NCBI RefSeq assembly: GCF_010119975.1
Contig: NZ_CP048222.1
Location: 2,622,501-2,686,500, forward strand
DNA: 64,000 bases
Direction: 5' to 3'
Source: Rhodocytophaga rosea
Lineage (GTDB): Bacteria; Bacteroidota; Bacteroidia; Cytophagales; 172606-1
Of the stretch, positions 7,048-57,718 are shown piece after piece. The first letter of the stretch is position 1. Each line of letters opens with the position of its first letter. Below the pieces are notes generated by a model that was not told the DNA's origin, did not search any database, and was given only the letters and a program-made list of their open reading frames with translations. Position numbers and translations under genes: made by a program.

Positions 7048-8346
7048 TTACGCTTTTACTAGAATTTCTTCCAAAGATTCGTAATTGGCATGAACAATTT
7101 TCTCAATATGTTCATCCGTTAAGGCTGTAGACAGGAACAAGCTTTCGTATTGGGAAGGAGCCAGATACACACCGCGTTTCAGCATCGCCTGGAAATACTT
7201 GCCAAAAAGCACGGTATCTGAGCTTTTGGCGGTTTCAAAATCGTAAACTTCCTGATCGGTGAAGAAAATGCTAAACATGGAGCCAATGTGATTAATGGTA
7301 TAATTCAATCCTAGTTTTTTCAGATTCTCTTTAAAACCTGCTACGAGCTTTCCGCCAATAGATTCGAGCTGGCTATATACTTCCGGTTGGGTATTGAGGT
7401 GGCGCAGCATGGCTAAACCGGCTGACATAGCAATGGGATTTCCGGATAAAGTGCCTGCCTGGTATACTGGTCCGGCCGGAGAAACAAAATCCATGATTTC
7501 TTTTTTGCCACCATACGCTCCAACAGGCATTCCTCCGCCAATGATTTTACCTAAGGTGGTTAAATCTGGCATAATATCGAAACGTTCCTGTACGCCTCCT
7601 TTTGCCAGACGGAAACCTGTCATTACTTCATCAAAAATTAATAGAATTCCATGCTGCGTACACAAATCACGTAAAACTTCTAGAAAGCCATTTTTTGGCA
7701 ACACCAGTCCCATATTTCCGGCAACAGGCTCTATAATTATAGCTGCAATATTTTTGGGGTTGGCCTCAATTAATGTTTGTACTGCTTCCAGATCATTATA
7801 TGGAGCGGTAAGTGTATCGTTAGCAACACCTTTTGTAACGCCCGGACTATCGGGAACGCCCATGGTTATAGCACCACTTCCGGCTGCAATCAGGAAGGAA
7901 TCACCATGGCCGTGGTAACAACCTTCAAACTTGATAATCTTTTCCCGGCCAGTATATCCCCTGGCCAGCCGTATGGCTGACATACAGGCTTCTGTTCCGG
8001 AATTAACCATGCGCACTTTTTCTACGGATGGCACCATTGAAACAATGAGTTCTGCCATTTCCACTTCTTTGCGGGTAGGTGCACCAAACGATAAGGAACT
8101 GGAAACAGCTTCTTTTACCGCATTTTCAATTAATTCATGTGCATGGCCCAATACCATAGGTCCCCAGGAATTAATGAGTTCAATATAGGAATTGCCATCT
8201 TCATCATATAAATAAGCACCTTTCGCCGATTTAATGAACAAGGGATTCCCTCCTACTGCCCGGAAAGCCCGGACTGGTGAATTTACTCCGCCAGGAATGT
8301 ATTGTTTGGCCTGGTTAAATAAGGTATGGCTATTGGTTGTTTGCAT
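7048..8346 (-). CDS. hemL: Glutamate-1-semialdehyde 2,1-aminomutase
   Basis: A 432-residue class-III PLP aminotransferase-fold enzyme that converts glutamate-1-semialdehyde to 5-aminolevulinate in the C5 route to haem. Evidence: YIPGGVNSPVRAF near the start, the GYTGREKIIKFEGCYHGH segment, the PLP-contacting Asp in IFDEVMTGFR, the catalytic-lysine region TTLGKIIGGGMPVGAYGG and the family signature QAGTLSGNP. Length is normal. No other haem gene is adjacent. It lies upstream of the rpsP cluster on the same strand but with separate promoter evidence. Confidence 0.97.
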   Translation of the reverse strand: MQTTNSHTLFNQAKQYIPGGVNSPVRAFRAVGGNPLFIKSAKGAYLYDEDGNSYIELINSWGPMVLGHAHELIENAVKEAVSSSLSFGAPTRKEVEMAELIVSMVPSVEKVRMVNSGTEACMSAIRLARGYTGREKIIKFEGCYHGHGDSFLIAAGSGAITMGVPDSPGVTKGVANDTLTAPYNDLEAVQTLIEANPKNIAAIIIEPVAGNMGLVLPKNGFLEVLRDLCTQHGILLIFDEVMTGFRLAKGGVQERFDIMPDLTTLGKIIGGGMPVGAYGGKKEIMDFVSPAGPVYQAGTLSGNPIAMSAGLAMLRHLNTQPEVYSQLESIGGKLVAGFKENLKKLGLNYTINHIGSMFSIFFTDQEVYDFETAKSSDTVLFGKYFQAMLKRGVYLAPSQYESLFLSTALTDEHIEKIVHANYESLEEILVKA

Positions 8347-8437
8347 AGCAATTAGTTATTGGTTATCTGTCAATAATCACTTCTATAAAATGAGCAGAGA
8401 AAGATATTGTTTTAAAATTCAGCGTCCGAAATCAGAT

Positions 8438-10120
8438 TTACTCTGCAATGGGATTAATGAGCACCAACTGGGCATTCTGAAATTTAACTAGAGGTACATA
8501 TTGGTTGTCGTTGGCACCAGTATAATTATAGCCTGGCAGAATCACGCCTTTTTGCGGCGCTTGCTGGTGTAAAGCCTGGTGGAAAAATGTACCATGTTCA
8601 CCTAGTAAACGGCCAAAAAACAGCATCATATCATAACCCTGGTAGGAGTATATAGAAGGAATGATACTCTTTTTCGACACATAATTCTTGCGGAAAGATT
8701 TTACAGTTTCGCTGCCATAATCAATGTATTCGGGATAGATAAAATGGATATTCCGCCTTTCAAACTGATCAAAGGAGATCAACTTTAACTCAAGCCAGTT
8801 AGATAAGGTGACTACAGGAACTTTAGAAGAACGCTGTTCGAGGGCATTGGTAAAGTTAACCACAATATTCTGGTTATCAGTTGTAATAAACACATGGCCA
8901 AGGCTGGTTTCCTGCGTTTCAGTAATGGCTTGCGCAATATCTCCTACATTGACCTGGGTAATTTTTTTGATGGCATTTACTTTTCCGCCTTTATCCAGAA
9001 TCTGTTTGCGGTAAGTTACCGCCAGAGAAGAATCCTTAGGCGTAGGGCCAAACAAAATCATGACCGATTTTGGTGCAAATGTATTGAGGGCATATTCAGC
9101 AGCCTTTTGCACCTGTGTTTCCAGCGAAGGCTTTAACAGGTAAGCAGATGGATTATTTTCTATTAACTGGCCATTATTAGAAATCGGATTAATAAGTCCT
9201 ACACTTTTCTGGTTAGCAAACGCTACAGCTACTTTATTTGTAGCTCCATATAAAGGGCCAATTAAGATATCCATTCCGGCAAATTCCGGCAGATTTACTG
9301 TTTCCAGCATCTTATTTCCATCGTTTGCAATATCATATGCAAATACATTCACTTTTGTACCCTGTGTAGTAAGTTCATCGGCCGCTATTCTAATTCCTTC
9401 ATACATATCCAATACAAACTGGTTGTTTCGAGGTTTTCCGGCTTCCATGCCTTCGGGCTGAAATGGAAAAAGAACTGCTATGTTGTATTCAGCCTTCTTA
9501 GAAATCTTTTTCAATTCCTCCATTGCCTTAATTCTGCCCAGCTTAAACTTAGTATCTAACTGTTTGGCAAGGCTGGCATCTTCGTCTCTGGCACTGGCGA
9601 GCAATTTGTCTATTAATACACCTGCAATTACTTCATCTTCCGGATATTTTTTCTGAAGATTTTTCAGCGTATTTAGTTCTTGCTCCTGAGCCAGATAGTG
9701 GCTTTTTAGGTTCTGAACATCTTCCCGGATTTGTTTGCTTTTGCATTTTTCCAGGTAACCTAACGCAGCATCTTCGTTACCTTTTTCAAAAGCGATATTG
9801 GCTAATAAATAGTTAGCTGATTCTGCATCCGAGAAGGAAGGATATTTTTCCAGCAACTGAATGAGTTGCAGGCGGGCAGCATCGTATTTGGCTGTTTTAA
9901 ATAATGCATACGCCTGGTAATAATGACTATAAGCGATATATGGATTATCGGCTGTTTGTTTAGAAAGAGAACTGAAGATTTCCCGGGCTAAATCATATTT
10001 CTCTTGTTTGAGTAGTTGTTTTCCTGATTCATATTTACGCTCCAGGTCTTTATTTGCTTGTGAAAAGGCTACAAACGAAAGGATGAGAAAGCAGAAAGTA
10101 AGCAATGTTTTTTGCATCAT
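8438..10120 (-). CDS. TPR plus periplasmic-binding-protein type 1 (LivJ-like) protein
   Basis: A 560-residue secreted protein with a signal peptide (MMQKTLLTFCFLILSFVAFSQ). Residues about 22-185 are helical TPR-like repeats (YQAYALFKTAKYDAA, ANYLLANIAFEKGNEDAALGYLEKC). Residues about 210-555 form a type-1 periplasmic-binding fold related to branched-chain amino-acid binding proteins and LpoA-like proteins (YNIAVLFPFQ, ILIGPLYGATNKVAVAFA, SYQGYDMMLFFGRLL). The TPR-plus-PBP1 layout resembles the LpoA activator of penicillin-binding proteins, but I cannot show that function. No ABC permease lies nearby, which argues against a simple transporter role. It follows yidC on the same strand and has its own candidate promoter at 10224-10231. 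Confidence 0.8.
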   Translation of the reverse strand: MMQKTLLTFCFLILSFVAFSQANKDLERKYESGKQLLKQEKYDLAREIFSSLSKQTADNPYIAYSHYYQAYALFKTAKYDAARLQLIQLLEKYPSFSDAESANYLLANIAFEKGNEDAALGYLEKCKSKQIREDVQNLKSHYLAQEQELNTLKNLQKKYPEDEVIAGVLIDKLLASARDEDASLAKQLDTKFKLGRIKAMEELKKISKKAEYNIAVLFPFQPEGMEAGKPRNNQFVLDMYEGIRIAADELTTQGTKVNVFAYDIANDGNKMLETVNLPEFAGMDILIGPLYGATNKVAVAFANQKSVGLINPISNNGQLIENNPSAYLLKPSLETQVQKAAEYALNTFAPKSVMILFGPTPKDSSLAVTYRKQILDKGGKVNAIKKITQVNVGDIAQAITETQETSLGHVFITTDNQNIVVNFTNALEQRSSKVPVVTLSNWLELKLISFDQFERRNIHFIYPEYIDYGSETVKSFRKNYVSKKSIIPSIYSYQGYDMMLFFGRLLGEHGTFFHQALHQQAPQKGVILPGYNYTGANDNQYVPLVKFQNAQLVLINPIAE

Positions 10121-10223
10121 AGAAGAATTAAATGGATCACGATAAGTTCAAACTTGGTGCATTCCTCTACACAAGCTTTTCAATATGCACAAATTCACAA
10201 CTGGTACAGCCTCATGAGAACTG

Positions 10224-10231
10224 CAAACATA
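10224..10231 (-). promoter_or_regulatory. Candidate -7 element (TATGTTTG) for the TPR/PBP1 gene
   Basis: TATGTTTG on the minus strand, about 100 bases before the ATG at 10120, matches TAnnTTTG. A -33 element at standard spacing is not evident. Confidence 0.45.
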
Positions 10232-10309
10232 CAAATTTTTGAGCCAACCTGAAGCCTAAAAGCGAGTTTGCAGTTTACTGGGTATGTACGAAAAAACTAT
10301 CTCTTATCG

Positions 10310-12136
10310 TTACTTTTTCTTCTTGGCTTCTTCGGCACTTTTAAGGGCATCTTCCAGCCGCTGGGCAAATTTGGATTTCTTTTTATCCTTATTCTTGAGT
10401 TTGTTCTCGTCCAGTACTCTTCTAATCTTAGCTTCATCCACAAACTTGCGGATCACTACCTGCTGTCCAATGGAGATTACGTTGGATACAAAATAATAGA
10501 AGGTAAGTCCGGCAGGCAGTGAGTTCAGAATAAACATGAACATGATGGGCATAATATATTGCAGCGATTTCATTGGCCCCTGCATGGTAGTCATCTGGTT
10601 GTTGAAATACGCATAGGCTACCGAAGAAATCGTCATCAAAATAGTAAACAAACTGATGTGTGAACCATAGAATGGAATAGCAAAAGGCAGTGTAGCAATG
10701 GAATCATAGGTAGAAAGATCGCTCGACCACAAAAACTCTTTCTGACGCAATTCAATTAAATTAGGGAATAAACTGAATAAGGCCAGTAAAATAGGCATTT
10801 GCAACAATACAGGAATACAGCCACTCAGCGGATTTACGCCTACCTGTTGGTACAGTTTCATCTGTTCCTGCTGTACCTTAGCCATATCATCGCCATTTCT
10901 CGCCTTAATTTCTTCTATTTCCGGTTGTAAAACTTTGGTTTTTGCCAGGGAGATATACGATTTATAAGATAAGGGCAATAACATGACTCGGATTAGCAAT
11001 ACTAGAATAATGATAATAATGCCATAGTTACTGATAAATTTCTCTAGGAAATGGAATACGTTTACAATAAAATACCGGTTAATGATACGTACAATCGGCC
11101 AGCCGAAATACACATTCTCTCCAAAGCCTTCCGTTACATCATTTACTACCCTGTAATCATTAGGACCGAAATAGAAAGAAAAATTGCCTTTTCCACTTTT
11201 TAAATCAGCTATTGGAATGGCTAAACTGGCTTCCAGGGTTTTTACTGTACTGCTGTCTGCCTGGTCTACATTGGTTTTAAAGGTACCAGCAGAAAAAGCA
11301 GTAGTATTGGCGATAATTGCCGATAAAAAGAACTTCTGTTTTAAAGAAACCCATTTTACAGGTGCTTCTGCTTTCTGTTCTTCCAGGCTTTTTGAAGCTT
11401 CTGATACCTGGTCGAAGGTACCATCCTGCGTATAATAATTAATAGTAGATGTAATCCGACTGGCTTCCATATCCAGTTCGAGCCGCTTGAGCTTATCAAT
11501 CCAGTAGAATTGTACTGGTGTATTTTTTATGGCATTATCCAGGCCGGTTAGTTTGAGCTGGTGTCCCAGTTCAAAACCGCTGCCTTTCAGGCTATACGTT
11601 TGCTCGATGTATTGCGTAGGAGAAAGGGATGCACGGAAAGTAACAGCCGTACTATCTCCTGCTTTCACCTGAATATTAGAACTTGTAGTGGTAAAATATA
11701 GATTTTCCAGATTAATGTTGCCAGTGTTTGCAGGTAATGTATAGACCATCTGGCTGGTTTGCTCGTCGAGTAAAATAAGCGGTTTGCGGTCGTAGGTTTT
11801 ATAGTTTTTCAGCAAAACCTCTTTAATTCTGGCTCCTTTGCTTCCAAAAGTCACCTTAATATCCTGGTTTTCTAAAACAAGTTCTTTGTCCTGGCCGGAA
11901 GCCACTGTGGCAAAATCACCAAAGGTTCTGCGGAGGTTTTCATTGACTAAAGAGTCATTGCGAAGAGAATCGGGAAGTTCTACTGGTGTAGTTGCCGCCT
12001 GATTACCAGGTGTCTGGTTTACGCCGCCTGTATCTTTTTTTACTTGTTTAGGTTGCGGACTAGGTGCAAAAAACTGGAAATAAACAAATAACAACAATAA
12101 AATGAGCATAATGCCCGTCGCCTGATTCCTATCCAT
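10310..12136 (-). CDS. yidC: Membrane protein insertase YidC
   Basis: A 608-residue inner-membrane insertase/chaperone. There is an N-terminal membrane anchor (about residues 5-24), a large periplasmic beta-sandwich domain (about 55-350), then the conserved five-helix YidC/Oxa1 core (about 360-560) with QVGVNPLSGCIPVLLQMPILLALF, and a Lys-rich C-terminal tail that would face the ribosome. Length and layout match Bacteroidota YidC. It lies 271 bases downstream of pyrG on the same strand, with a hairpin (12240-12277) and a TAnnTTTG element (12348-12355) between. Confidence 0.97.
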   Translation of the reverse strand: MDRNQATGIMLILLLLFVYFQFFAPSPQPKQVKKDTGGVNQTPGNQAATTPVELPDSLRNDSLVNENLRRTFGDFATVASGQDKELVLENQDIKVTFGSKGARIKEVLLKNYKTYDRKPLILLDEQTSQMVYTLPANTGNINLENLYFTTTSSNIQVKAGDSTAVTFRASLSPTQYIEQTYSLKGSGFELGHQLKLTGLDNAIKNTPVQFYWIDKLKRLELDMEASRITSTINYYTQDGTFDQVSEASKSLEEQKAEAPVKWVSLKQKFFLSAIIANTTAFSAGTFKTNVDQADSSTVKTLEASLAIPIADLKSGKGNFSFYFGPNDYRVVNDVTEGFGENVYFGWPIVRIINRYFIVNVFHFLEKFISNYGIIIIILVLLIRVMLLPLSYKSYISLAKTKVLQPEIEEIKARNGDDMAKVQQEQMKLYQQVGVNPLSGCIPVLLQMPILLALFSLFPNLIELRQKEFLWSSDLSTYDSIATLPFAIPFYGSHISLFTILMTISSVAYAYFNNQMTTMQGPMKSLQYIMPIMFMFILNSLPAGLTFYYFVSNVISIGQQVVIRKFVDEAKIRRVLDENKLKNKDKKKSKFAQRLEDALKSAEEAKKKK

Positions 12137-50638: not shown

Positions 50639-53600
50639 ATGAAGCTTCACTTTACCAATTTGATTGTAAAATCTTTTGTACCCAGGAAATCCAGCCAAGG
50701 GTATGATACAAACGTAATTTATCATAAGTCTACACCTTCGATTTGGAAAAATATATTCGTAACTCTTTTATTTTTATGGAGTGTAAACAATATTTATTCA
50801 TCTCAGAGCTTGGCTCAAGGTACTGGTTTACCCACAGGCTTTACAGACCAATTGGTATCGGGTAGTTGGAATGCGGCAGTAGGTTTTACCTTCAATCCGG
50901 CCGGTACTCGTATGTATGTCTGGGAAAAAGGAGGTAAGGTCTGGATAGTAGAGAATGGTGTAAAATTATCTACCCCTCTTATTGATATAAGTGATGAAGT
51001 AGGTGACTGGAAAGACCATGGTTTATTAGGTTTCGCCTTACATCCCAATTTTGAGTCTAATGGGTATTTTTACCTGCTATATGTAGTTGACAGGCATCAT
51101 TTAATTAATAGTGGCACTGTAAACTATGACCCAACTGTTAATGAATATAATCGCGCCACTATTGGCCGGATTACACGTTATAGAGCAAATCCACTAAACG
51201 CTTTTAAAACAGCAGATTTAAGCAGCCGAACAATCTTATTGGGTGCTACAGCATCAACAGGGCTTCCTATTCTTCAGGTTACTCATGGAGTAGGTTCAAT
51301 TGTATTTGGTACAGACCAGACTTTACTAGTTTCTTTAGGAGATGGTTCTAGTCCGCTTTCCGGAAAACCCGATGTAGGAAGTTCTGGAGAAAGCTACTTC
51401 CTTGATGCTCTAGCAGATGGCATTATTACACCTGAGCAAAATGTAGGTGCTTTCCGCTCCCAGCAGTTGGAGTCACTTAATGGAAAGATTATAAGAATAG
51501 ACCCTGAAACAGGTAATGGTGTACCTAGTAATCCATTTTACGATCCTGCAAATCCCGGCTCAAATAAATCTAAGGCTTGGGCGCTCGGGCTTCGTAATCC
51601 AAGTCGAATGAGCCTAAAGCCAGGCACAGGTAGCCATAATCCCAGTGAAGGCAACCCAGGCGTATTGTATCTAGGAGATGTAGGTTGGGATACATGGGAA
51701 GAAATGGATGTAGTACCAGGCCCAGGACTTAACTTTGGCTGGCCAATATATGAAGGGTACGAAGCAAGTCTGTACTCTACTAAAACTACACAAAATCAAT
51801 ATTCACTTAATCCACTCTATGGTGTTGGGGGCTGTACCCAAAGATATTTTAGTTTTATAGATTTACTTAAGCAACCTACTGCGAATGGGCAAGTATCTTT
51901 TCCAAACCCATGTAATACTAGTCAACAGATTCCTGCCAGCGTGCCTCATTTTGTTCATACAAGGCCAGTGCTGGACTGGAAGCATGGAACCAGTCCTTCA
52001 CGCACTGGTACATTCAATGGTAATGATGCTTCTGTCGTTAATCTAGGAAGTGCAGGTTCAGTTCCAGGGCCACAGTTTGGCGGTAGTTCGGCTATAGGCG
52101 GCGTATGGTATACAGGCGATAAATTTCCCGCAGAGTACCAAAACAAATATTTTCTTGGAGATTATGGTGCTAAATGGATACGTAGTTTATCCTTTGATAA
52201 TACTCATAATTTACAGCAGGTAGAGAATTTTATAAATGGTAATGCAATAGTAGTTTATATGAATACCCATCCAACAGATGGTGCATTGTATTATATTAAC
52301 TATGCTTCCCAGATTCGGAAAGTAACTTATATACCTAGTGGCAACCAACCCCCAACAGCCATTGCTTCAATGGATAAATATTATGGAATTAGTCCATTAA
52401 CAATTCAGTTTACCGGCAGTAATTCTACAGATCCAGAAGCATTACCTTTGGCCTACGAATGGAATTTTGGTGATGGTTCACCTGTAAGTAATTTGCCTAA
52501 TCCTTCCAAAATATTCAATGCTCCTGCAGGTGTGCCAACAAAATATAATATAACTTTAAAAGTAACTGATAATCAAGGTTTAACTAATGAAACATCTTTG
52601 TTCGTATCTGTAAATAATACACCGCCTGTTGTAAATATTACTTCGCCTGTTAATAACAGCAAATACACAATGACACAGGAGAGTACAGTTAATTTAACAG
52701 CAAACGTTACAGATACAGAACATAGTAGCGCAGGGCTTACATATCAATGGCAGACTATTCTATATCATAATGATCATAACCATCCCGAACCATATGATAA
52801 TGATCCAAGCACAACAGCTACTATCATTCCAATAGGCTGCGATGGAAATCTATACTATTTTGAATTTGTATTAATTGTAACAGATGGTGCTGGATTATCA
52901 GATACAGCAAGTGTCAGGATGGACCCAGATTGTGCAAGTTTACCGTCAAATATAACGGCCTTATCAGCTACAGCCAGTGATACAAAAGTTAATTTAAGCT
53001 GGACTAATCCATCTAATACTTTTGATGAGTTAATGATTGTTGCAAAAGAAGCGCTAAGTGTTACCGCTGATCCTGCCGGAGATGGCAGTGCTTATCAAGC
53101 TGATTTGAACTTTTTAGGAATAGGTTCTACCTTTGATGGAGGTAAAGTTGTATATAAGGGTAACGTTTCCCCCAAAACAATTACTGGCTTAACCAATAAC
53201 AACCGGTATTATTTTAAAGTGTTTACAAGAAAAGGGTCCATTTGGTCAATCGGTGCAGAAACTAGTGCAGTACCTCGGTCGGCATCAAATATAGCTCCAG
53301 TGGTTAGTTTAACATCTCCGGTTAATAATATTTCTTATACACAGGGAGCAGACGTAACTATTCAAGCCACGGCTTCAGACTCAGATGGAAATATAGCAAA
53401 GGTAGAATTCTACGCTGGTACTGCTAAGCTGGGGGAAGACCTGACTAGTCCTTATAGTTTTACCTGGAAAAATACGCCTGCCGGAAGTTATGCCATTACT
53501 ACGAAAGCTTATGACAATCTGGACGCCGTTACCACTTCTGGAGCTATTACCATAAATATTAATAGTTTCAGTAATACCAGTTTTTATAGGGCAATTAACT

Positions 53601-56600
53601 TAAATGGTACGGCATTAACGATTGATGGGAATGCCTGGGAGGCTAGTACAGCACCTAATTACACCTTAACCGGTACAGATGGTGTATTAAATAAAAATGG
53701 AACTTCGGTATTTCCTTCTACTGATGCAAACAGGACATTGATGCTTACAACAGCCATATCAGGAAAGAGTGTTGGTGTATCAATAAATAATGTTCCCAAT
53801 GGAGAATACGATGTGTATGTATATGTTTGGGAAGATAACCGTGCTATTCTTGTTAATTTTTCTGTAGAAGGACAGCCAGCACTTCAGGGATACAATACTG
53901 GATATGCCGGATATTGGGAGAAACTTGGCCCTTGGAGAGCTACTATTACAGATGGAAACATAAATTTAGGTATAAATGGAGGTTCAGAATCGATCTTGCT
54001 TTCCGGTATTGAAATCAGGAAAATAGAAACAGGAGGCAATAATGCTCTTCCTACAGCAAACCTTACTTCACCTGCTAACAATTCAACTTTCACAGCCAGC
54101 AGTAATATCACCCTAACTGCGACGGCCGCCGATACGGATGGAAGTATTAGCAAAGTGGAATTCTATCAGGGTCTAACCAAATTAGGTGAAGATTTAGCTA
54201 GTCCTTATGAGTTTATTTGGAATCATGTAGCAGCTGGAAGTTATCAACTCACTGCAAAAGCTATAGATAATTTAAATGGTACTGGTATCTCTACGGTTAA
54301 GACTATTACAGTAACACAATCTAACCAGCCTCCTGTTGTCAATCTGACTTCACCTATTAATAACCAAGCTTTCACTGCTCCTGCTTCTATCAATATTATT
54401 GCTCAAGCCTCAGATGGAGATGGTAATATTAGTAAAGTGGAATTTTATAGAGGTACTACGAAGTTGGGAGAAGACTTGACGAGTCCATATGAATATTCAT
54501 GGGCAAATATTGCAGCGGGAAGCTATCAGCTTACTGCTAAGGCTTTTGATAATCTAAATGCAACAGGCACCTCTTCAATTGTAAATATTACAGTAAGTCA
54601 AGGTAACCAGGCGCCCATTGTAAGTTTAACAGCGCCTGCGAACAATTCAACATTCACAGCCGGTAGTAATATCACTCTAACTGCAACTGCCTCAGATAAT
54701 GATGGCAGTGTGAGCAAGGTGGAGTTCTATCAAGGCACTACCAAGCTAGGAGAAGATTTGACAAGTCCTTATGAATATGTGTGGACCAATGTAAGTGCTG
54801 GCTCCTATCAACTCACGGCCAAAGCTACAGATAACCAGAATATAAGCACTATTTCTTCTAATATATCTATTGCTGTTACCTCTTCAAATCAAAATCAACC
54901 GCCGATAGTAAGTCTGTCAACACCAAATGGCAGTCCTGGTTATTCCTCTGGAGATAATATTACATTTGTTGCAGCTGCTTCGGATGCAGATGGAAGTGTG
55001 AGTAAAGTGGAGTTCTATCAGGGTTCAACCAAGCTAGGAGAAGACTTAACTAGCCCCTATGAGTTTACCTGGAGTAATGTAGCAGCAGGCAGCTATCAAA
55101 TCACGGCTATTGCTACCGATAATCTGAATGCTGTTACTACTTCCTCCGTGATTAGCATCACAGTCAGTCCGGCGGCAGCGGTGAGCTTTTACAGAGCCCT
55201 CAATCTGAATGGAGGAACGCTAACCATTGATACCCGCACTTTTGAAGCCAGTGCTACTGCCCCAGGATTCACTTACAGTGGCAGAGTGTTTGCCAATCAG
55301 AATATCACCCTTTCTCCGGCAACCGATGCCGCCAGAGCTTCCATGATCCGATCTTCAATCTATTCCCTGGCTTCTGCACCGGCTAGTCTTGCTTTGAGTG
55401 GGGTGAGCAATGGAGAATATGATCTGTACTTGTATGTATGGGAAGATTCTGCTCCTGAACCCTATTCACTCACCCTGGAAGGACAGGTGATCCTCAGCAA
55501 TTATTCCACCGGCGGAAAGGGAAGCTGGGCAAAGCTAGGTCCGTACCGCACTACCATTGCCGATGGCATTCTCAACATAGGCGCCAGTGGAGGAGCCGCT
55601 AACCTGTCAGGTTTGGAACTTTGGAAAGTAAATCAGCCAAATCAATTGCCAACAGTGGCTTTAACATCTCCTGCCAACAATGCGAGTTTCACTGCCGGTA
55701 ATAATATTACTCTAACTGCCACTGCTTCGGATGCAGATGGGACTGTAAGTAAAGTAGAATTCTACCAAGGCACTACTAAAATTGGTGAAGACTTAACTAG
55801 CCCCTATGAGTTTGCATGGACAAATGTAGCAGCAGGCAGCTATCAACTCACGGCTAAAGCCATTGATAATGTAGGTGATTCTTCTACCTCTGCTGTGGTA
55901 AATACTACTGTAAGTCAAGCTAACCAGGCACCCACTGTCACTCTGACTTCTCCTGTCAACAATACTAGTTTCATGGCGCCGGCTTCCGTTACCTTAGCCG
56001 CTGCTGCTTCGGATGCAGATGGAAGTGTGAGTAAAGTGGAGTTCTATCAGGGTTCAACCAAGCTAGGAGAAGACTTAACTAGCCCCTATGAGTTTACCTG
56101 GAGTAATGTAGCAGCAGGCAGCTATCAAATCACGGCTATTGCTACCGATAATCTGAATGCTGTTACTACTTCCTCCGTGATTAGCATCACAGTCAGTCCG
56201 GCGGCAGCGGTGAGCTTTTACAGAGCCCTCAATCTGAATGGAGGAACGCTAACCATTGATACCCGCACTTTTGAAGCCAGTGCTACTGCCCCAGGATTCA
56301 CTTACAGTGGCAGAGTGTTTGCCAATCAGAATATCACCCTTTCTCCGGCAACCGATGCCGCCAGAGCTTCCATGATCCGATCTTCAATCTATTCCCTGGC
56401 TTCTGCACCGGCTAGTCTTGCTTTGAGTGGGGTGAGCAATGGAGAATATGATCTGTACTTGTATGTATGGGAAGATTCTGCTCCTGAACCCTATTCACTC
56501 ACCCTGGAAGGACAGGTGATCCTCAGCAATTATTCCACCGGCGGAAAGGGAAGCTGGGCAAAGCTAGGTCCGTACCGCACTACCATTGCCGATGGCATTC

Positions 56601-57718
56601 TCAACATAGGCGCCAGTGGAGGAGCCGCTAACCTGTCAGGTTTGGAACTTTGGAAAGTAAATCAGCCAAATCAATTGCCAACAGTGGCTTTAACATCTCC
56701 TGCCAACAATGCGAGTTTCACTGCCGGTAATAATATTACTCTAACTGCCACTGCTTCGGATGCAGATGGGACTGTAAGTAAAGTAGAATTCTACCAAGGC
56801 ACTACTAAAATTGGTGAAGACTTAACTAGCCCCTATGAGTTTGCATGGACAAATGTAGCAGCAGGCAGCTATCAACTCACGGCTAAAGCCATTGATAATG
56901 TAGGTGATTCTTCTACCTCTGCAACTACTACTTTGATTGTAAACGCTGCTCCTACTATAAGCTTTTACAGAGCCCTCAATCTGAATGGAGGAACGCTAAC
57001 CATTGATACCCGCACTTTTGAAGCCAGTGCTACTGCCCCAGGATTCACTTACAGTGGCAGAGTGTTTGCCAATCAGAATATCACCCTTTCTCCGGCAACC
57101 GATGCCGCCAGAGCTTCCATGATCCGATCTTCAATCTATTCCCTGGCTTCTGCACCGGCTAGTCTTGCTTTGAGTGGGGTGAGCAATGGAGAATATGATC
57201 TGTACTTGTATGTATGGGAAGATTCTGCTCCTGAACCCTATTCACTCACCCTGGAAGGACAGGTGATCCTCAGCAATTATTCCACCGGCGGAAAGGGAAG
57301 CTGGGCAAAGCTAGGTCCGTACCGCACTACCATTGCCGATGGCATTCTCAACATAGGCGCCAGTGGAGGAGCCGCTAACCTGTCAGGTTTGGAACTTTGG
57401 AAAGTTTCCAGCAACAGCCGAGTAGGTGACGAATTGGAAGAAGTACAAGGAACAAGTACAGAACTGTTAGCGTATCCGGTACCTGCCTCTAAAGAGATCA
57501 GCTTTGAATTTAGCTTCCCTGAGCAGCAACAAGTAACTATGCAGCTATTTGATACGAGAGGAAATTTGGTTGCAAACTTATTTGATCAACAAGTGGAAGC
57601 AGCTCATAAGCATTGGGTAGTTTATCAGGTAGGCAACTTAGCAAATGGAGTATACTTAGTCAGACTTGCAGGCAAGCATACAGTCAAGCATCAGAAGATC
57701 ATTATTGATAAACACTAA
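50639..57718 (+). CDS. Giant modular secreted protein: PQQ-sugar-dehydrogenase-like domain, PKD, Ig repeats, malectin-like repeats, T9SS sorting domain
   Basis: A 2359-residue exported protein. The signal/anchor is at about residues 37-60. Residues about 62-565 are a glucose/sorbosone-dehydrogenase beta-propeller (GLLGFALHPNF, HGVGSIVFG, ALGLRNPSRM, GDVGWDTWEE). A PKD domain (about 570-660), an Ig-like region and an FN3-like region (about 768-880) follow. Then come eight Ig repeats (SKVEFYQG.TKLGEDLTSPYEF core), interleaved with four carbohydrate-binding, malectin-like modules (SFYRALNLNGG...GLELWKV), the first divergent, the other three identical. Residues about 2275-2359 are a Por-type T9SS C-terminal sorting domain (YPVPASKEISFEF, LANGVYLVRLAG, QKIIIDKH). 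Likely cell-surface polysaccharide-associated oxidation or adhesion; inferred. Repeat detail is in separate entries. Confidence 0.9.
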   Translation: MKLHFTNLIVKSFVPRKSSQGYDTNVIYHKSTPSIWKNIFVTLLFLWSVNNIYSSQSLAQGTGLPTGFTDQLVSGSWNAAVGFTFNPAGTRMYVWEKGGKVWIVENGVKLSTPLIDISDEVGDWKDHGLLGFALHPNFESNGYFYLLYVVDRHHLINSGTVNYDPTVNEYNRATIGRITRYRANPLNAFKTADLSSRTILLGATASTGLPILQVTHGVGSIVFGTDQTLLVSLGDGSSPLSGKPDVGSSGESYFLDALADGIITPEQNVGAFRSQQLESLNGKIIRIDPETGNGVPSNPFYDPANPGSNKSKAWALGLRNPSRMSLKPGTGSHNPSEGNPGVLYLGDVGWDTWEEMDVVPGPGLNFGWPIYEGYEASLYSTKTTQNQYSLNPLYGVGGCTQRYFSFIDLLKQPTANGQVSFPNPCNTSQQIPASVPHFVHTRPVLDWKHGTSPSRTGTFNGNDASVVNLGSAGSVPGPQFGGSSAIGGVWYTGDKFPAEYQNKYFLGDYGAKWIRSLSFDNTHNLQQVENFINGNAIVVYMNTHPTDGALYYINYASQIRKVTYIPSGNQPPTAIASMDKYYGISPLTIQFTGSNSTDPEALPLAYEWNFGDGSPVSNLPNPSKIFNAPAGVPTKYNITLKVTDNQGLTNETSLFVSVNNTPPVVNITSPVNNSKYTMTQESTVNLTANVTDTEHSSAGLTYQWQTILYHNDHNHPEPYDNDPSTTATIIPIGCDGNLYYFEFVLIVTDGAGLSDTASVRMDPDCASLPSNITALSATASDTKVNLSWTNPSNTFDELMIVAKEALSVTADPAGDGSAYQADLNFLGIGSTFDGGKVVYKGNVSPKTITGLTNNNRYYFKVFTRKGSIWSIGAETSAVPRSASNIAPVVSLTSPVNNISYTQGADVTIQATASDSDGNIAKVEFYAGTAKLGEDLTSPYSFTWKNTPAGSYAITTKAYDNLDAVTTSGAITININSFSNTSFYRAINLNGTALTIDGNAWEASTAPNYTLTGTDGVLNKNGTSVFPSTDANRTLMLTTAISGKSVGVSINNVPNGEYDVYVYVWEDNRAILVNFSVEGQPALQGYNTGYAGYWEKLGPWRATITDGNINLGINGGSESILLSGIEIRKIETGGNNALPTANLTSPANNSTFTASSNITLTATAADTDGSISKVEFYQGLTKLGEDLASPYEFIWNHVAAGSYQLTAKAIDNLNGTGISTVKTITVTQSNQPPVVNLTSPINNQAFTAPASINIIAQASDGDGNISKVEFYRGTTKLGEDLTSPYEYSWANIAAGSYQLTAKAFDNLNATGTSSIVNITVSQGNQAPIVSLTAPANNSTFTAGSNITLTATASDNDGSVSKVEFYQGTTKLGEDLTSPYEYVWTNVSAGSYQLTAKATDNQNISTISSNISIAVTSSNQNQPPIVSLSTPNGSPGYSSGDNITFVAAASDADGSVSKVEFYQGSTKLGEDLTSPYEFTWSNVAAGSYQITAIATDNLNAVTTSSVISITVSPAAAVSFYRALNLNGGTLTIDTRTFEASATAPGFTYSGRVFANQNITLSPATDAARASMIRSSIYSLASAPASLALSGVSNGEYDLYLYVWEDSAPEPYSLTLEGQVILSNYSTGGKGSWAKLGPYRTTIADGILNIGASGGAANLSGLELWKVNQPNQLPTVALTSPANNASFTAGNNITLTATASDADGTVSKVEFYQGTTKIGEDLTSPYEFAWTNVAAGSYQLTAKAIDNVGDSSTSAVVNTTVSQANQAPTVTLTSPVNNTSFMAPASVTLAAAASDADGSVSKVEFYQGSTKLGEDLTSPYEFTWSNVAAGSYQITAIATDNLNAVTTSSVISITVSPAAAVSFYRALNLNGGTLTIDTRTFEASATAPGFTYSGRVFANQNITLSPATDAARASMIRSSIYSLASAPASLALSGVSNGEYDLYLYVWEDSAPEPYSLTLEGQVILSNYSTGGKGSWAKLGPYRTTIADGILNIGASGGAANLSGLELWKVNQPNQLPTVALTSPANNASFTAGNNITLTATASDADGTVSKVEFYQGTTKIGEDLTSPYEFAWTNVAAGSYQLTAKAIDNVGDSSTSATTTLIVNAAPTISFYRALNLNGGTLTIDTRTFEASATAPGFTYSGRVFANQNITLSPATDAARASMIRSSIYSLASAPASLALSGVSNGEYDLYLYVWEDSAPEPYSLTLEGQVILSNYSTGGKGSWAKLGPYRTTIADGILNIGASGGAANLSGLELWKVSSNSRVGDELEEVQGTSTELLAYPVPASKEISFEFSFPEQQQVTMQLFDTRGNLVANLFDQQVEAAHKHWVVYQVGNLANGVYLVRLAGKHTVKHQKIIIDKH
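54974..55893 (+). repeat. 920-bp direct repeat, copy 1
   Basis: Identical as far as I can compare by eye to 56003-56922 (offset 1029). It spans the end of Ig repeat 5, malectin-like module 2 and most of Ig repeat 6. Both boundaries fall within Ig modules, as expected for recombination between homologous repeats. Confidence 0.88.
55184..55629 (+). repeat. 446-bp malectin-like module, copy 1 of 3
   Basis: The same 446 bases recur at 56213-56658 and 56960-57405 without visible difference, from AGCTTTTACAGAGCC to TTTGGAAAGT. Identity includes third codon positions. Confidence 0.88.
56003..56922 (+). repeat. 920-bp direct repeat, copy 2
   Basis: Second copy of 54974-55893; diverges at its right end into a different linker (AACTACTACT instead of TGTGGTAAAT). 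Confidence 0.88.
56213..56658 (+). repeat. 446-bp malectin-like module, copy 2 of 3
   Basis: Internal to the second 920-bp copy. Confidence 0.88.
56960..57405 (+). repeat. 446-bp malectin-like module, copy 3 of 3
   Basis: Third copy, offset 747 from the second. It is followed by the sorting-domain linker rather than by another Ig repeat. Confidence 0.88.

Follow-up and report, generated by a model that had tools for sequence, protein, structure and literature searches.

Identical malectin-like modules within one exported multidomain protein of Rhodocytophaga rosea and their probable homogenisation by within-gene recombination

A protein-coding gene that carries long stretches of its own sequence two or three times over, without a single base difference, raises the question of how the copies became identical. 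Such a gene, here called gene 1, is located in a 64-kb stretch of DNA (the window) of the Rhodocytophaga rosea genome, which consists of one contig of 8,983,451 bases. The repeats of gene 1 are probably modules of one exported protein that were homogenised by recombination within the gene, a form of concerted evolution. Gene 1 is described in no paper found, and the Rhodocytophaga papers among the matches listed are, by their titles, mostly community surveys.

Gene 1 is an open frame of 7,080 bp (50639–57718, on the forward strand like all features given below) and encodes a multidomain protein of 2359 aa, whose domains were assigned with Pfam and NCBIfam. The order is a glucose/sorbosone dehydrogenase-type (GSDH) domain, a PKD domain, nine Big_7 Ig stretches interleaved with four modules, and a T9SS type A sorting tail. 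The best-matching stretch of the GSDH domain (50882–51778, residues 82–380) fits PF07995 with an E-value of 4.1e-22 and a score of 79.3 bits against a cut-off of 25. Its top relative of solved structure is 2ism, followed by the hedgehog-interacting protein. The PKD domain (PF00801) occupies 52397–52597, residues 587–653. The modules measure about 148 aa each and are set between Ig repeats, of which a, b and c are diverged copies of repeat-finding family D1 (54028–54270, 54310–54552 and 54592–54834; together 54028–54834). The Por_Secre_tail domain at 57473–57706 (residues 2279–2356) is matched by both PF18962 (33.5 bits, cut-off 27) and TIGR04183 (31.1 bits, cut-off 23), which classes the protein as T9SS cargo. 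Judged by its sequence, the product would be a surface-held or secreted protein of the sugar dehydrogenase type, with several putative sugar-binding-like modules and an Ig stalk that may act as a spacer.

The repeats were delimited as exact maximal matches. A 920-bp block occurs at 54974–55893 and again at 56003–56922, with zero mismatches and an offset of 1029 bp, and is bounded by mismatches at 54973 and 55894. Its first copy comprises the 3' half of Ig d, module M1 and most of Ig e, and its second copy the 3' half of Ig f, module M2 and most of Ig g. The modules M1 (55184–55629) and M2 (56213–56658) recur a third time as M3 (56960–57405), which adjoins the sorting tail; all three are identical over 446 bp. 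Between the two block copies lies an unshared spacer of 109 bp (55894–56002, the end of Ig e and the 5' half of Ig f), and another of 37 bp (56923–56959) precedes M3. The spacers differ in length and sequence, yet the reading frame is unbroken. The first module, M0 (53579–54022), was located by tblastn and nucleotide alignment. It has escaped homogenisation: it shares 68% nucleotide identity with the identical modules over 408 aligned bases, its protein identity to them is 44.7–46.5%, and synonymous sites are saturated. The exact 920-bp duplication, the three identical modules and the strongly different first module had all been noticed in a preliminary description of this locus, and computation bears them out. 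The same description placed the breakpoints inside Ig repeats. This is correct for the edges of the 920-bp block; the third 446-bp copy starts and ends with the module itself.

Within the window, every forward-strand 24-mer that is repeated falls into 54974–55893, 56003–56922 or 56960–57405. Internal repeats were further scanned, at offsets of at least 100 bp, in open frames of at least 600 aa from the window and from 20 evenly spaced 20-kb stretches of the genome (400 kb), two of which overlap regions chosen for paralogue or Ig genes. Among the resulting 49 open frames, gene 1 ranks first with 920 bp, followed by a GSDH paralogue with 137 bp and a third frame with 35 bp. Since the runner-up reaches just 137 bp, a chance origin of the gene 1 repeats is excluded. 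Elsewhere in the genome (L096, at about 5211 and 10309), there are two stretches of tandem repeats with a period of 8 bp and exact runs of 110 bp.

The identity of the module itself was approached through its predicted structure. Prediction from 34 aligned module sequences gave a model with a mean pLDDT of 97.6, whose best match is residues 718–884 of 6d8g, the beta-glucuronidase 2 of Bacteroides uniformis (Z 17.7, rmsd 2.2, 139 aligned residues). Human malectin (9ikp) follows with Z 15.5, rmsd 2.5 and 141 aligned residues, and the ectodomains of plant FERONIA and ANX2 match with Z 15.4–15.6. The model thus supports a malectin-type beta-sandwich that would span the whole module. At the sequence level, the Pfam Malectin profile matches five of the 34 module sequences at E-values up to 1 (best 2.2e-4) and leaves the window module unmatched, and a sequence-based profile search of solved structures yielded no relative of the module at E-values up to 0.1. 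The label "malectin-like", used from the beginning, is upheld by the predicted fold. With a Hymenobacter module as query, relatives were found in 37 of the 390 genomes of the order at E-values up to 1e-30. Literature combining malectin, Bacteroidetes, carbohydrate-binding and T9SS was not found.

Part of the history of the modules can be read from the paralogues of gene 1. The R. rosea genome holds six GSDH genes of this kind, gene 1 and five others at 56–63% protein identity, plus three weak matches. At E-values up to 1e-60, R. aerolata and genome G002 have one such gene each, and the remaining five genomes of the family have none. The enzyme parts of the six R. rosea genes (the window gene, L024, L025, L075, L076 and L077) are conserved and their C-terminal tails differ. 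The tail of gene 1 carries modules and Ig repeats; that of gene 2 (L024) carries Ig repeats, modules and PA14; that of gene 3 (L025:1924-6495) combines a DUF1349 match (PF07081) with Ig repeats; and the tails of the three further paralogues consist of other sequence. Gene 3 has duplicated a domain of its own kind, the PF07081 match, with 96.9% nucleotide identity over 540 bp at an offset of 1119 bp.

Gene 2 is located 5.1 Mb from gene 1. Its two modules are identical to each other (0 of 444 positions differ) and differ from the gene 1 modules at 10 of 444 positions, and they recur with a period of 1032 bp, similar to the offset in gene 1. The ten differences are not clustered (P 0.56). Between the two genes, dS is 0.085 for the module, as opposed to 2.76 for the GSDH domain, which is near synonymous saturation, and 1.46 for the tail; pS for the PKD domain is 0.79. 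Upstream of the module, the identity drops to about 55%. The old divergence of the GSDH, PKD and tail parts, set against the low dS of the module, implies that the module moved between the two genes long after these had separated. A length of 444 bp contains about 112 synonymous sites, and the absence of any difference in 920 bp limits dS within gene 1 to below roughly 0.013. On this reckoning, the identity within gene 1 would be younger than the exchange between genes 1 and 2 by a factor of roughly six.

Relatives in other genomes retain the differences that gene 1 has lost. The gene of R. aerolata KACC 12507 possesses two modules with 12 differences over 444 bp, of which six lie in positions 1–84, none in 85–338 and six in 339–444. 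When the differences were placed at random at third positions, an undisturbed stretch as long as this identical core of 254 bp arose in 0.03% of cases (P about 0.0003). Gene conversion leaves bounded tracts of identity, and the tracts found in the relatives therefore point to this process. The differences between copies are almost all synonymous, namely nine of ten between the R. rosea paralogues and 11 of 12 in R. aerolata, and dN/dS is about 0.03 in two comparisons; the module sequence is thus under purifying selection. The modules of the two species share 64% protein identity. The sorting tail of the R. aerolata gene is only 26% identical to that of gene 1, and orthology is unproven. In a tree of the modules, the Rhodocytophaga copies group by species and gene, M0 excepted, and the window module groups with the R. 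aerolata modules (support 96/89).

A wider survey covered 39 multi-module genes, which were hand-picked from match lists and are maybe not exhaustive; L159 was left out because it and L051 of the Hymenobacter trio discussed below seem to be one gene, and L063 lacks any one frame containing two complete modules. A pair of modules at least 95% identical is present in four of these genes: genes 1 and 2, the R. aerolata gene and a gene of G151, whose modules are 99.1% identical and whose protein looks, by eye, to be of the GSDH kind. The lack of such a pair in the other 35 implies that homogenisation is not constant. Fourteen within-gene pairs with 80–99% nucleotide identity and at least one difference were compared with a null weighted by per-column divergence. 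The longest identical run exceeds this constraint-weighted expectation in eight of them (P<0.01), and P ranges from 0.025 to 0.24 in the remaining six. In L069, a relative from the family, a 731-bp exact repeat (8296–9026 and 9809–10539, offset 1513) lies partly outside the GSDH frame, and inside this frame no exact repeat of at least 30 bp was detected.

The behaviour of repeats over time is seen most clearly in Hymenobacter. One gene with the domain order Ig, Ma, Ig, Mb, tail is common to strain BT188 (L050), H. roseosalivarius (L051) and H. qilianensis (L052, a complete chromosome). Compared by position, the modules Ma and Mb are 80–94% identical across the species; across positions, they are 56–59% identical. 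The longest exact runs common to the two Ig copies measure 335, 289 and 301 bp in the three species. Having been picked for their length, they have zero within-species differences by construction; between species, the same stretches differ at 27–52 bases. A fairer, wider stretch of Ig and linker gives 91.1–94.5% identity within species versus 77.7–89.0% between them. That the layout predates the species is evident from the interleaved modules, and the Ig copies were consequently made uniform later and separately in each line. Going by these comparisons, the trio is the clearest case of concerted evolution, for which intragenic gene conversion, accompanied by some duplication, is the simplest route. 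Two other species sets follow the pattern less clearly. In L152/L157/L158, the Ig copies are not grouped by species, and modules are 92–94% identical within species, as against 87–94% for modules of the same position in different species. For L129/L138/L133, module identity is 84–91% within and 72–84% between species.

In gene 1, M1–M3 have no differences and hence no tract edges, so that duplication and conversion are inseparable within this gene itself. Homogenisation by within-gene recombination, the favoured explanation, would proceed as follows. Diverged module copies and Ig domains would pair through their homology, and one copy would overwrite another by gene conversion. Occasionally, a segment may also be duplicated, or exchanged with a paralogous gene. 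On this view, sharing of the module between gene 1 and gene 2 came first, and each gene acquired its own identical copies afterwards. Conversion through RecA-type homologous recombination was presumably the main route in gene 1, and conversion with some segmental duplication or exchange is the most economical source of the identity observed.

Could segmental duplication have sufficed? If Ig repeats underwent very recent unequal crossing-over and the bare module was additionally copied to a place before the tail, the observed state would arise without any conversion. The 920 identical base pairs at a constant offset do resemble a tandem duplication, as does the similar period of gene 2. However, a single crossover predicts matching junctions, and the 5' half of Ig d, which precedes the first block copy, is unlike the 5' half of Ig f, which precedes the second. 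When the 5' half of Ig d was compared with genes 1–3, no ungapped match exceeded 60%; spacer B has its best match in gene 2. Because these Ig halves flanking the blocks are unmatched, one unequal crossover between Ig repeats cannot by itself account for the layout. Furthermore, M3 is a bare module whose flanks are unlike those of M1 and M2, and the relatives display mosaics like those left by conversion, as well as Ig copies that evolve in concert within an unchanged architecture. Duplication alone is therefore regarded as improbable. The preliminary description had proposed recent unequal recombination or gene conversion. Recent recombination or conversion stands, with the relatives favouring conversion, but one simple unequal crossover does not.

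Two further explanations concern the origin of the sequence as such. Assembly or polishing may collapse copies to one consensus or expand them wrongly, gene 1 is known here from the assembly alone, and the repeats of hagA, rgpA and kgp are described in PMC5266723 as having defeated automated assembly. On the other hand, the genome was assembled as one 8.98-Mb contig, unique spacers separate the copies, and a single open frame is kept. Like behaviour is also found at an independent locus, gene 2, and in several other genomes, including the complete chromosome of H. qilianensis, which makes an artefact very unlikely. Repeated insertion of a cassette, whether mobile or horizontally imported, has even less to recommend it and is considered extremely unlikely. 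The module does occur in differing protein contexts, and its GC content at fourfold sites, 0.51, stands out from the gene 1 backbone at 0.24–0.26. However, this value is near the genome mean of 0.48, and the tree places the window module with those of R. aerolata. Moreover, the module protein has no relative among plasmids or in IMG/VR, where three stretches matched the pattern and none was confirmed, and the 920-bp block has none among phages, so that nothing suggests a mobile origin. M3 and its edges (56940–57430) contain no inverted repeat of at least 12 nt; in 54950–55920, there are two 12-nt pairs, which look like chance.

Homogenisation by within-gene recombination raises the further question of base composition. 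Intragenic conversion in these Cytophagales proteins could be continuous and GC-biased, copy-editing chosen domains to an identical, GC-rich state while the rest drifts; this idea is tentative and, on present evidence, doubtful. It derives from the Hymenobacter trio, in which GC at fourfold sites is 0.85–0.91 in the homogenised Ig copies versus 0.28–0.44 in the interleaved modules, 0.33–0.43 in the N-terminal part and 0.47–0.55 as the averages of flanking genes. Polarised changes, which are few, give a substitution equilibrium of 0.92–0.95 for the Ig copies and 0.45 for the rest. The Ig copies show a lower rate of GC-to-AT changes (3 of 70 site-branches versus 23 of 126, P 0.007), and the ratio of change directions alone is not significant (P 0.29). 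The composition of these Ig copies would fit GC-biased conversion. Over the 39 genes, module identity and GC excess are weakly and not significantly correlated (rho 0.26, P 0.10), and the correlation of raw module GC with identity (rho 0.47, P 0.002) is confounded by genome GC. Module GC exceeds that of the N-terminal part in 24 of the 39 genes, with a median excess of 0.02 (Wilcoxon P 0.03). GC-biased conversion is thus not established, given the P of 0.10 across the 39 genes and a window module close to the genome average. Separately, the gene 1 backbone (50816–54022) is unusually AT-rich, and the fourfold GC of M0, 0.19, is below that of all 983 sampled genome windows. Whether such bias exists in bacteria is disputed: PMC4450053 argues for it, going by its title, and PMC8153448 states that it has not been observed. 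If the idea were true, these genes would provide an internally controlled test of the matter.

The gingipain and HagA proteins of Porphyromonas gingivalis are exported by the T9SS. They are also the nearest precedent: according to PMC5266723, adhesin-domain repeats are identical within and between rgpA, kgp and hagA of one genome. Gene 1 differs from them by its malectin-like and Big_7 Ig modules, its GSDH enzyme part and its Cytophagales host, and concerted behaviour has been traced across species in its relatives. The Periscope Proteins (Sgo_0707/SHIRT, SasG, Rib) likewise have highly similar DNA repeats, for which intragenic recombination and stalk-length change are proposed in PMC8201768. 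Their repeats form a stalk head to tail, and variation of its length between strains is reported, whereas those of gene 1, known from one strain, alternate with other domains. The eight genomes of the family that were searched include no second strain of R. rosea. For duplicated prokaryotic genes, long-lasting concerted evolution, in which copies of the same species are more alike than orthologues, is reported in PMC6053082; the R. rosea case concerns modules within one gene.

Gene 1 thus adds a clear example to a known kind of repeat evolution, and the evidence for the process is unusually good. Genes of this type are easily mis-assembled, which should serve as a warning. The module system is of use in telling conversion and duplication apart, and biased conversion in bacteria could be tested on it. 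With both homogenised modules and modules that escaped homogenisation in one gene, and in several species, it constitutes a clean natural experiment on how large exported proteins maintain or change their binding modules.
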